Shown here: in pieces, positions 21,011-31,627 of the stretch
How the letters are laid out: every line of letters starts with the position of its first letter
How positions within the stretch are numbered: the first letter of the stretch is position 1
Assembly (NCBI GenBank): GCA_018263335.1
Contig: JADFCY010000018.1
Span: forward strand, 1-37,462
DNA length: 37,462 nucleotides
Reading direction: 5' to 3'
Origin: Methanolinea sp.
Lineage (GTDB): Archaea > Halobacteriota > Methanomicrobia > Methanomicrobiales > Methanospirillaceae
Made by a program: the position numbers and the translations under genes
Notes under the pieces: generated by a model
What the model saw: the letters and a program-made list of their open reading frames with translations, nothing else
The model's database searches: none
Told to the model about the DNA's origin: nothing

Positions 21011-21481
21011 TTAATCGATTTTTATCCGGCTTCCCCGCTCTTCCTTTGATTTCTTCATCCGTATCTCAAGGACACCGTTCTTGAAGCTTGCGGAAGCCCC
21101 TTTTTCCGTGACGTCATGGGGGAGCGCGACAATCCGTGCCATGGATCCGTACATCCTCTCCCTGACGTAGTACCCCTCGTCCTTCTCCTCCTTGTCCATC
21201 TTCCTCTCGCAGGAGATCTCGAGGGTGTTTGGGCTGAGCAGGGAGATAGAGACATCCTCCTTGTCGACACCGGGGAGATCGGCGACGATCATGACTTCAT
21301 CCTCATGCTCTCTCACATCAACCCGGAACTCTCCTCGGATCGCCGGAAGCATCCTGTCCGCGACTCCGCCGGGCGGGAGAAGTCGCCCCCCTCCTCCCCA
21401 GAACCGGTTCTCGAGCTCCGCCATCATCTCCTCAAAGTCGCGCATCATCCACCCGAAAGGGTATCTCCTTCTGTATACCAT
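21011..21481 (-). CDS. hsp20: Small heat-shock protein Hsp20 (alpha-crystallin family)
   Basis: A 156-residue ATP-independent chaperone that binds unfolding proteins as large oligomers. After a Met/Arg/Phe-rich N-terminal arm of about 45 residues (YPFGWMMRDFEEMMAELENRFWGGG) comes the alpha-crystallin domain: FRVDVREHEDEVMIVADLPGV, ISLLSPNTLEISCERK, and GSMARIVALPHDVTEKGASASFKNGVLEIRM. The C-terminal RIKID supplies the I-x-I oligomerisation motif. The ATG at 21481 is fixed by AAGGAGG seven nt upstream; an in-frame TTG at 21487 would be too close to it. Upstream lie a consensus TATA box and a CTAAC-N5-GTTAG palindrome, so the gene is probably heat-shock regulated. Confidence 0.95.
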   Translation of the reverse strand: MVYRRRYPFGWMMRDFEEMMAELENRFWGGGGRLLPPGGVADRMLPAIRGEFRVDVREHEDEVMIVADLPGVDKEDVSISLLSPNTLEISCERKMDKEEKDEGYYVRERMYGSMARIVALPHDVTEKGASASFKNGVLEIRMKKSKEERGSRIKID

Positions 21482-21523
21482 TGTCAAGCCTCCTTGTGGT
21501 CCTCCAGCAGTATGGGTGCTGGA

Positions 21524-21538
21524 CTAACTTGATGTTAG
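21524..21538. promoter_or_regulatory. CTAAC-N5-GTTAG palindrome, candidate HSR1-type operator
   Basis: The plus strand reads CTAAC-TTGAT-GTTAG, a perfect 5-5-5 inverted repeat. It lies 7 nt downstream of the hsp20 TATA box and covers the predicted transcription start, the expected place for a repressor. From memory, the heat-shock regulator HSR1 (AF1298) of Archaeoglobus fulgidus was reported to bind a palindrome of exactly this form. The regulator in this cell would plausibly be the Phr/HSR1-like protein encoded at 31010-31627. Confidence 0.8.
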
Positions 21539-21545
21539 GAGTTAT

Positions 21546-21553
21546 AATATAAA
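21546..21553 (-). promoter_or_regulatory. TATA box of hsp20
   Basis: Leftward TTTATATT inside an A/T-rich 16-nt island. The predicted start about 25 nt downstream (near 21524) gives a leader of about 40 nt that carries the AAGGAGG Shine-Dalgarno. Confidence 0.75.
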
Positions 21554-29437: not shown

Positions 29438-30904
29438 ATGTTCAGGGAAAAACTCGACGTACCGCTTGCCCTGACCTTTGACGACGTACTCCTCGTCCCA
29501 GCACCCTCACTCGTGGAGCCAAACGAGGCCGACATCCACACCCGCTTCTCCCGGAATATCCCCCTCAACATCCCTCTTGTCGGTGCTGCGATGGACACGG
29601 TGACAGAATCTGCGATGGCGATGGCGCTCGCACGCGAGGGCGGCATCGGGGTCATCCACCGGAACATGTCCCCTGAACAGGAGATCGAGGAGGTGCACAG
29701 GGTCAAGAGGGCGGAGGAGTTGATCGAGAGGAACGTGCTCTCGGTCAGCCCCACGACCAGCGTGGCAGATGTCGAGCGCCTGATGGTTGAGCACGGCATC
29801 GGCGGTGTGCCGGTCCTTGAGAACGAGAAGATCGTGGGGATCGTGAGCCGGCGGGATGTCCGTGCCATCGCCTCCCGCCGGGGTTCCGAGAGCGTGCAGG
29901 CCATCATGACGAGGCAGCCGATCACTGCCGGCGAGGACATCTCCATGGAGCAGGCGCTCGAGACGATGTACACCAACAAGGTTGAACGGCTCCCGGTGGT
30001 CGACAAAGGCGGCCGCCTTCTCGGTATCATCACCATGCAGGACATCCTAGAGAAACGCCAGTACCCGAATGCCACCAGGGATGCAAGGAAGAGACTCAGG
30101 GTGGCGGCCGCAGTCGGCCCGTTCGACATTTCCCGGGCTCACCTCCTTGACGAGTGCGGTGTCGATGCCCTGGTGGTCGATTGTGCCCACGGCCATAACC
30201 TCAATGTCGTGAGGGCAATCAGGGACATCAAGGGGAGCGTGAAGGCCGACGTTGTGGCCGGAAATATCGCCACCCGCGAGGCGGCCGAGGACCTCATCGA
30301 TACTGTCGATGGGTTGAAGGTCGGCATCGGGCCCGGGTCCATCTGCACGACAAGGATCGTGGCCGGCGTCGGCGTCCCGCAGGTTTCTGCCATCGCAAGC
30401 GTCGCTGACGTGACAAGAGGGACAGGAGTCCCGGTTATTGCGGATGGAGGGATACGGTTCAGCGGGGACGTGGCAAAAGCGATCGCTGCCGGTGCCGACT
30501 GCGTGATGATCGGGAGCCTCTTTGCCGGCACCGATGAGTCGCCGGGCCGGGTGATCACGATGAAAGGCCGGCGTTACAAGCAGTACAGGGGAATGGGGTC
30601 GCTTGGCGTAATGAGCGGCGGGGTCTCGAGCGACCGCTATTTCCAGAAGAAGGAGATCGGGAAGACCAAGTTTGTTCCCGAGGGGGTGGAGGGGGTGACT
30701 CCTTACGTTGGCACCGTCTCCGATGTCGTCTATCAGCTCGTCGGCGGCCTGAAATCCGCCATGGGGTACACGGGTTCCCGGACGATCCCCGAGATGCACG
30801 AGAAGACGCGGTTTGTCAGGATCACCGCGGCCGGGCATACCGAGAGCCACCCTCACAACATCATGATCACAGACGAGGCTCCCAACTACCGGATATCGGA
30901 TTGA
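29438..30904 (+). CDS. guaB: Inosine-5'-monophosphate dehydrogenase
   Basis: A 488-residue IMP dehydrogenase, the committed step to GMP. The barrel starts LALTFDDVLLVPAPS and NIPLVGAAMDTVTESAMAMALAREGGIGVIHRNM. Two CBS motifs are inserted at about 95-205. The catalytic Cys loop is GIGPGSICTTRIVAGVGVPQ (near residue 300), then VIADGGIRFSGDVAKAIAAGAD, GSLFAGTDESPG and a flap RYKQYRGMGSLGVM. It is essentially co-transcribed with mfnB (2-nt gap), with GGTG inside the mfnB end as Shine-Dalgarno. Confidence 0.96.
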   Translation: MFREKLDVPLALTFDDVLLVPAPSLVEPNEADIHTRFSRNIPLNIPLVGAAMDTVTESAMAMALAREGGIGVIHRNMSPEQEIEEVHRVKRAEELIERNVLSVSPTTSVADVERLMVEHGIGGVPVLENEKIVGIVSRRDVRAIASRRGSESVQAIMTRQPITAGEDISMEQALETMYTNKVERLPVVDKGGRLLGIITMQDILEKRQYPNATRDARKRLRVAAAVGPFDISRAHLLDECGVDALVVDCAHGHNLNVVRAIRDIKGSVKADVVAGNIATREAAEDLIDTVDGLKVGIGPGSICTTRIVAGVGVPQVSAIASVADVTRGTGVPVIADGGIRFSGDVAKAIAAGADCVMIGSLFAGTDESPGRVITMKGRRYKQYRGMGSLGVMSGGVSSDRYFQKKEIGKTKFVPEGVEGVTPYVGTVSDVVYQLVGGLKSAMGYTGSRTIPEMHEKTRFVRITAAGHTESHPHNIMITDEAPNYRISD

Positions 30905-30975
30905 ACACTTCTCCTCTTTTCGATCGCAAAAAATACCTCTCTCCTGTAATGTTTCCAGATGAGTAACCCCCAAAG

Positions 30976-30983
30976 TATAAATA
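30976..30983 (+). promoter_or_regulatory. TATA box of the Phr/HSR1-like regulator gene
   Basis: TATAAATA in an A/T-rich island. Its predicted start lies near 31004, six nt before the ATG at 31010, so the transcript is leaderless or nearly so. No Shine-Dalgarno is seen, which fits. Confidence 0.7.
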
Positions 30984-30992
30984 ATGAAAAGA

Positions 30993-31007
30993 CTAACATA
31001 AAGTAAT
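30993..31007. promoter_or_regulatory. Degenerate CTAAC-N5-GTTAG site in the regulator promoter
   Basis: CTAAC-ATAAA-GTAAT keeps the left half-site of the hsp20 palindrome exactly, with the same 5-nt spacing, and three of five bases in the right half. It lies 9 nt downstream of the TATA box (7 nt at hsp20) and overlaps the predicted transcription start. This is what an autoregulatory, weaker operator would look like. Confidence 0.6.
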
Positions 31008-31009
31008 CA

Positions 31010-31627
31010 ATGCTGGATCAGGTAGAGGTCGCACGACTCCTCGATATCCTTGGAAACCGGAACAGGCGCCGAATCATCGAGCTGTTGAGACAGAAGCCCT
31101 GCTTCGTCACCGAGATATCCGACCGCCTGATGCTCTCTCCAAAAGCCGTGATTGAGCACCTGCAGCTGATGGAGCGCGAGGAGATCCTTTCCTTTCGGCT
31201 TGACGAGCGCAGGAGGAAATATTACTTCCTCGCAAATGACATCGATGTGATGGTCAGGCTGCTCCGGCAGGACCAGATCAGCGTTGTGACAAAGGACAAC
31301 TCCCACCGCCTCCGCGCCTCGCTTGCCAGGCTCCAGAAGATGGTGGAGACGAGGGAGGAGATGGCAGAGAGCCTGAAGAACCTTGAGAGGGACATTGACC
31401 AGCAGATAAAGGAGATCATCTCCTTTGGGCAGGAGATCCTTGCAAACGAGACCCAGATAGATCTCCTAATCAGCCTTGCGCACTGCAATCTCACCCTCCA
31501 GGAGCTCGCTGAACTTGTCGAGGCCCCTCGCGATGCCGTATCCGATAGCCTTGAATGGTTGCGCAAGAAACACATAGTTGAGCGGGAAGGGGAGACCTAC
31601 CGTCTCTGTGATGCACATGCCCAGTAA
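31010..31627 (+). CDS. Phr/HSR1-like ArsR-family transcription regulator
   Basis: A 205-residue regulator. Residues 1-75 are a winged helix closely resembling the Pyrococcus heat-shock repressor Phr: LLDILGNRNRRRIIELLRQKP, FVTEISDRLMLSPKAVIEHLQLM, then the wing FRLDERRRKYYFLA. A coiled-coil-like stretch (about 95-145, KMVETREEMAESLKNLERDI) should dimerise it. The C-terminal part (about 150-200, LLISLAHCNLTLQELAELVEAPRDAV and LRKKHIVEREGETYRL) looks like a second, degenerate winged helix. A CTAAC-type site covers its own promoter, and a small-heat-shock-like gene overlaps its end, so a heat-shock repressor role is a strong inference. Confidence 0.87.
   Translation: MLDQVEVARLLDILGNRNRRRIIELLRQKPCFVTEISDRLMLSPKAVIEHLQLMEREEILSFRLDERRRKYYFLANDIDVMVRLLRQDQISVVTKDNSHRLRASLARLQKMVETREEMAESLKNLERDIDQQIKEIISFGQEILANETQIDLLISLAHCNLTLQELAELVEAPRDAVSDSLEWLRKKHIVEREGETYRLCDAHAQ

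Follow-up and report, generated by a model that had tools for sequence, protein, structure and literature searches.

Only two archaeal heat-shock regulators, Phr and HSR1, have been characterised, both of them in hyperthermophiles (PMC9133787). HSR1 of Archaeoglobus fulgidus reportedly recognises CTAAC-N5-GTTAG in front of its own operon, where it has been proposed to obstruct the transcription machinery until it is released by heat (PMC9133787). Phr of Pyrococcus furiosus likewise represses its own gene as well as hsp20 and the gene of VAT1, a Cdc48 homologue; sites for Phr are located upstream of HSP20 and VAT1 in Pyrococcus (PMC10746257), and the Phr operator has been described as TTTA, TGGTAA and AAAA blocks (PMC9133787). 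According to PMC5852551, furthermore, the regulator family is widespread and probably ancestral in euryarchaea, its role having been suggested from protein distribution and proteomics, and the arCOG01684 protein AMET1_0853 of Methanonatronarchaeum is proposed there as a heat-shock regulator of Cdc48 outside hyperthermophiles.

In this study, we analysed a stretch of 37,462 nucleotides from Methanolinea sp. (contig JADFCY010000018.1; the window hereafter), in which a regulator gene of this kind lies 9.5 kb from a candidate operator of hsp20. The features concerned are the following:

21011..21481, minus strand: hsp20, encoding a 156-aa small heat-shock protein of the alpha-crystallin family (Pfam PF00011, E 1e-16)
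about 21489..21495, minus strand: hsp20 Shine-Dalgarno AAGGAGG (direct reading of the sequence)
21503..21523, minus strand: hsp20 leader hairpin TCCAGCA-CCCATAC-TGCTGGA (position kept in relatives)
21524..21538, minus strand: predicted hsp20 operator of the HSR1 type, CTAACATCAAGTTAG, a perfect 5-5-5 inverted repeat
21546..21553, minus strand: hsp20 TATA box, TTTATATT (direct reading of the sequence)
29438..30904, plus strand: IMP dehydrogenase gene (guaB), upstream neighbour of hsr1 (Pfam PF00478)
30975..30983, plus strand: regulator TATA box, GTATAAATA (direct reading; match to the TATA-plus-site pattern)
30993..31007, plus strand: variant of the operator, CTAACATAAAGTAAT, in the promoter of the regulator itself (two mismatches; predicted site)
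31010..31627, plus strand: hsr1 orthologue, encoding a 205-aa heat-shock regulator of the ArsR class and Phr/HSR1 type (A. fulgidus HSR1 as reciprocal best match)

On the minus strand, the hsp20 region runs from the TATA box through the operator, a 7-bp hairpin, AAGGAGG and the ATG (21481-21479) to the stop codon ending at 21011. A TTG at 21487, given as the start of hsp20 in a mechanical list of open reading frames, was rejected, as the ATG at 21481 is favoured by comparison with relatives. An earlier note made from the sequence alone had described a perfect CTAAC-N5-GTTAG palindrome between TATA and the coding region of hsp20; indeed, the palindrome is exact at 21524-21538 (minus strand), with the TATA box at 21553-21546, the repeat at 21538-21524 and the ATG at 21481. 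Archaeal transcription usually starts some 20 bp past the centre of the TATA box; the hsp20 operator, whose own centre lies at about this distance, would thus sit at the transcription start. When one mismatch at most was allowed, CTAAC-N5-GTTAG was found at only one place in the whole 2.03-Mb genome, namely the hsp20 operator, and 0.17 such matches are expected in a shuffled window of this size. The motif that the note had named for HSR1 was also right as judged from PMC9133787, and the hsr1 operon of A. fulgidus has CTAACATAAAGTTAG. Two MAGs encode Hsp20 proteins with 98-99% identity to that of the window, and several MAGs named Methanolinea encode ones with 85-93% identity. Most of the hsp20 promoters in relatives, which comprise 14 named MAGs (Methanolinea, Methanoregula, Methanofollis and their relatives) and 30 further loci of the same order, carry a version of the site at the same place (e.g., CTCACATAAAGTTAG, TTAACATAAGGTTAG and CTAACCAGGGGTTAG); several genomes of one family (f2) and a few others have only a weak site or none.

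The protein encoded at 31010-31627 had been called Phr-like in the earlier note. It is present in a single copy in the genome. When A. fulgidus HSR1 was used as the query, this protein was the best match in the genome (E 1.4e-16; next, 1.4e-5), and in the opposite direction HSR1 was its sole match in A. fulgidus at E 1e-8, with an overall identity of about 25%. Also, an IMPDH-like ORF is found directly upstream of hsr1 in three distant families (loci L175, L179 and L181). The assignment of the protein at 31010-31627 as the HSR1 orthologue is thus supported by the reciprocal best match, the single copy and the shared IMPDH neighbour. The presumed recognition helix, (S/A/G)PKAV(I/L)xHL, is nearly identical in this protein and HSR1, and P44, K45, H50 and L51 are invariant across 42 aligned regulator sequences.

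In terms of structure, Phr of P. furiosus (2p4w) was the best PDB sequence match of the regulator (E 1e-12), and its AF2 model (mean pLDDT 84.9) is composed of an ArsR-type winged helix, a long helix at residues 97-143 and a C-terminal winged helix, which is the Phr/HSR1 fold with two winged helices and a long coil as in 2P4W. A Foldseek search with this model returned PF0095 and 2p4w first; 2p4w was hit at E 2.7e-7 and a probability of 1.00 with a TM of only 0.37, and this low value is attributed to domain placement in the monomer model. Membership in the NCBIfam Phr family (NF053602) was rejected, given 65.9 bits against the cut-off of 320 bits; nonetheless, A. fulgidus HSR1 itself scores 85.2 bits and does not pass either, and the model is therefore too narrow for both proteins.

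The predicted operator CTAACATAAAGTAAT directly precedes the ATG of the regulator, downstream of its TATA box. At the same promoter, CTAACATNNNGTWA is found in nearly all orthologues of the order Methanomicrobiales and often ends 1-3 nt before the ATG. Exact CTAAC-N5-GTTAG occurs in eight non-redundant regulator promoters within the order, and symmetric variants such as CTTACATAATGTAAG are found in those of one genus (g27). In other classes, 20/28 regulator promoters, including that of A. fulgidus, have the exact palindrome.

To compare promoters across relatives, a site was scored when at least 8 of the 9 positions of CTWAC-N5-GTWA were matched within 100 bp upstream, and only non-redundant promoters were counted. 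This consensus had been picked after inspection of the same promoters, so that the comparison was not blind and the thermosome promoters and shuffled sequences serve as safeguards: the site was detected in 59/61 regulator promoters of the order and 25/28 of those in other classes, 34/41 hsp20 promoters and 24/28 cdc48 promoters of the order, versus 3-8% of dinucleotide shuffles, 0-3 promoters per set with the reversed pattern and 0/23 thermosome promoters despite equally clear TATA boxes. The earlier note had stated that a lack of enrichment upstream of chaperone genes in related genomes would speak against its proposal; the enrichment is seen for hsp20, cdc48 and the regulator gene. Furthermore, the centres of TATA and operator are 20-21 bp apart in the median, with hardly any variation (20.5 bp for hsp20 in relatives); archaeal transcription starts at about this distance, and a bound dimer would hence cover the start site.

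These results establish the sites and their conservation, their constant spacing from TATA, and that the regulator is an orthologue of HSR1. We consider it highly probable that the palindrome serves as operator for the HSR1-type repressor encoded at 31010-31627, which would repress hsp20, cdc48 and its own gene until heat. In the absence of heat stress, the repressor most likely occupies CTWAC-N5-GTWA as a dimer that spans the transcription start, some 20 bp after TATA, and would stop RNA polymerase from starting at the three promoters. This layout fits the negative loop described for HSR1 and Phr. Upon heat, the repressor would be released, and the small heat-shock protein and Cdc48 would rise; the repressor gene would be induced along with hsp20 and cdc48, by which repression could be restored afterwards.

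The bare motif string needs to be read with caution, and this bears on two other explanations. The earlier note had advised a scan of the genome and its relatives for the strict motif, and the advice was borne out in part: the sole site in this genome is that of hsp20, but the string alone is not specific. Within the order, there is about one exact CTAAC-N5-GTTAG per genome, a frequency close to that of the reversed-pattern control, as would fit a repeat that is fortuitous or an initiator-like part of the core promoter to which no regulator binds. In Methanoculleus-like genomes (family f5/g19; L012-L032), moreover, most exact sites are upstream of a gene for a DUF2178-like membrane protein of 120-128 aa, and so are two of the four exact sites in A. 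fulgidus, at one of which (L282) a small gene for an XRE-type HTH protein comes after the membrane-protein gene. The strict string was therefore rejected as a genome-wide finder of the regulon; since chance alone yields about one copy per genome and the XRE/membrane-protein module carries it as well, the string by itself proves nothing, and the evidence is instead position and the phylogenetic footprint. The TATA-plus-site pattern gave only two matches in the genome, at hsp20 and hsr1 and both in the window, but the reversed control gave 1-3. The enrichment is confined to three gene families and absent from the thermosome promoters, and for the family as a whole it already refutes the chance reading, which we regard as extremely improbable for the repeat at hsp20. 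An XRE-type protein, or another HTH regulator sharing the half-site, as the owner of the operator is also very improbable. The module resembles the present system in its half-site and spacing and in its place just after TATA, but differs in regulator class and target; its palindrome is usually extended inwards as CTAACA-N3-TGTTAG, whereas CTAACATCAAGTTAG at hsp20 has no such extension, and the regulator that has the site at its own promoter, in 59/61 cases, is the HSR1 orthologue.

Alternatively, the HSR1 orthologue might bind the site as an activator or sense a signal other than heat, such as redox or metal. Other ArsR-class proteins do respond to redox or metal, and the regulator, being of the ArsR class, also resembles SurR, MsvR and metal-sensing ArsR models. 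Nonetheless, an operator over the expected start about 20 bp after TATA fits repression rather than activation, and, as in A. fulgidus and Pyrococcus, chaperone genes are the predicted targets; we thus find this explanation very improbable as well and retain repression by the HSR1 orthologue until heat.

The genes concerned are arranged differently among these archaea. In the present genome, hsr1, cdc48 and hsp20 are at three loci, and a single hsr1-cdc48-hsp20 operon is not present; cdc48, which is located elsewhere in the genome, has the operator CTTACTAAAAGTAAA downstream of its TATA box, and the operators at the regulator gene and cdc48 deviate in the right arm. Outside the order, A. fulgidus and the majority of the other genomes examined around the regulator have a cdc48-like gene after that of the regulator, and in most of these arrangements an hsp20-like gene comes next; in Archaeoglobus and several other lineages, the three genes constitute a single operon with one operator in front. 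A. fulgidus, whose genome was assigned by a protein identical to AF1521 over 183/183 residues, has the exact palindrome four times: at the hsr1-cdc48-hsp20 operon, a second hsp20 and two membrane-protein genes (L282 and L283). As judged from gene order, therefore, the hsr1-cdc48-hsp20 operon is split into three loci in Methanomicrobiales, each of which has kept its predicted operator about 20 bp after TATA. The separate loci are an arrangement and not the defining function of the HSR1 regulon, and they provide an example of a regulon that outlives the break-up of its operon, the operator being retained at every piece with constant spacing to TATA.

Compared with the HSR1 system of Archaeoglobus, the operator sequence and its position after TATA, the orthologous regulator and the predicted targets (hsr1, cdc48 and hsp20) are the same. 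The differences are the three separate loci instead of one operon, the drift of the methanogen operators to CTWAC-N5-GTWA (the right arm being GTAA at hsr1 and cdc48), the lack in the methanogen of the second, overlapping TAAC half-sites found downstream in Archaeoglobus, and the protein identity of about 25%. Phr shares the protein family, the domain order and the predicted kinds of target genes, but its operator consists of the TTTA/TGGTAA/AAAA blocks, and the NCBIfam Phr model is not passed by the methanogen regulator. AMET1_0853 is in the same family as the methanogen regulator, though from a different class, and no operator is reported for it in the passages of PMC5852551 consulted.

The earlier note had further supposed that the HSR1 regulon would thereby be extended to a methanogen lineage where it was undescribed. 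We found no paper mapping the operator in methanogens in the open-licence literature, and this half of the supposition stands; a role for the family across euryarchaea has, however, already been suggested in PMC5852551, and what is extended is therefore the DNA element rather than the idea. Within the phylum, this cis-element of HSR1 can be followed across the Methanomicrobiales as well as in Archaeoglobaceae and several further families, with dozens of related genomes having the same site at hsp20, the repressor gene and cdc48. A testable regulon of three genes (hsr1, hsp20 and cdc48) with exact predicted binding sites is thereby given.

Besides the operator, most hsp20 leaders have a hairpin directly after it, near the likely 5' end of the mRNA, with stems that vary by genus: CCAGCA/TGCTGG, CCAGCGGC/GCCGTTGG, CCACAC/GTGTGG and others (L033-L046 and L113-L142). 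Tested against shuffles, the hairpin gave a combined P < 1e-9 over 32 non-redundant leaders, a value that is optimistic because hsp20 leaders are related, and 12-14 of the 32 reached P < 0.05 individually; the same test on cdc48 leaders detected no hairpin (median P 0.69). Covariation is suggestive, with two pairs changing on both sides among seven alignable Methanolinea-type leaders, to which the count was confined as the hairpin lengths are too unequal for alignment of all. An Rfam search with the leader hairpin gave nothing credible, the best matches being far below the cut-off. The pairing that is kept while the sequence changes points to an RNA element rather than a second DNA-binding site. 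A classic RNA thermometer hiding the Shine-Dalgarno sequence is disfavoured, since this sequence is outside the stem in the window, and for the same reason our preferred guess is that the hairpin stabilises the 5' end of the hsp20 mRNA. The conserved hairpin thus suggests a second control step. Tentatively, and with a likelihood that we put somewhat short of even, the hsp20 mRNA of Methanomicrobiales might be under two adjacent controls, the HSR1 operator at the start site and an undescribed leader hairpin acting on mRNA stability or temperature-tuned translation, on top of the dispersed operon whose operators have been kept.

Many regulator operators outside the order are followed by TAAC, some of which belong to a second, overlapping TAAC-N5-GTTA located 14 bp on. 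In some regulator promoters from outside Methanomicrobiales (L143, L145, L146 and L149), these make up overlapping tandem copies, TAAC-N5-GTTA-G-TAAC-N5-GTTA, repeated every 14 bp, an arrangement that might accommodate two dimers side by side.

The thermosome genes were also considered as a target of the regulon and rejected, none of their 23 promoters having the site and another element being common to them. Indeed, many thermosome promoters (L242-L271, including L243 and L266 of the present genome) have this other conserved element, similar to TATATAGAACYACAAACCAA, directly after TATA, pointing to a further, unnamed control of the chaperonin within the order.
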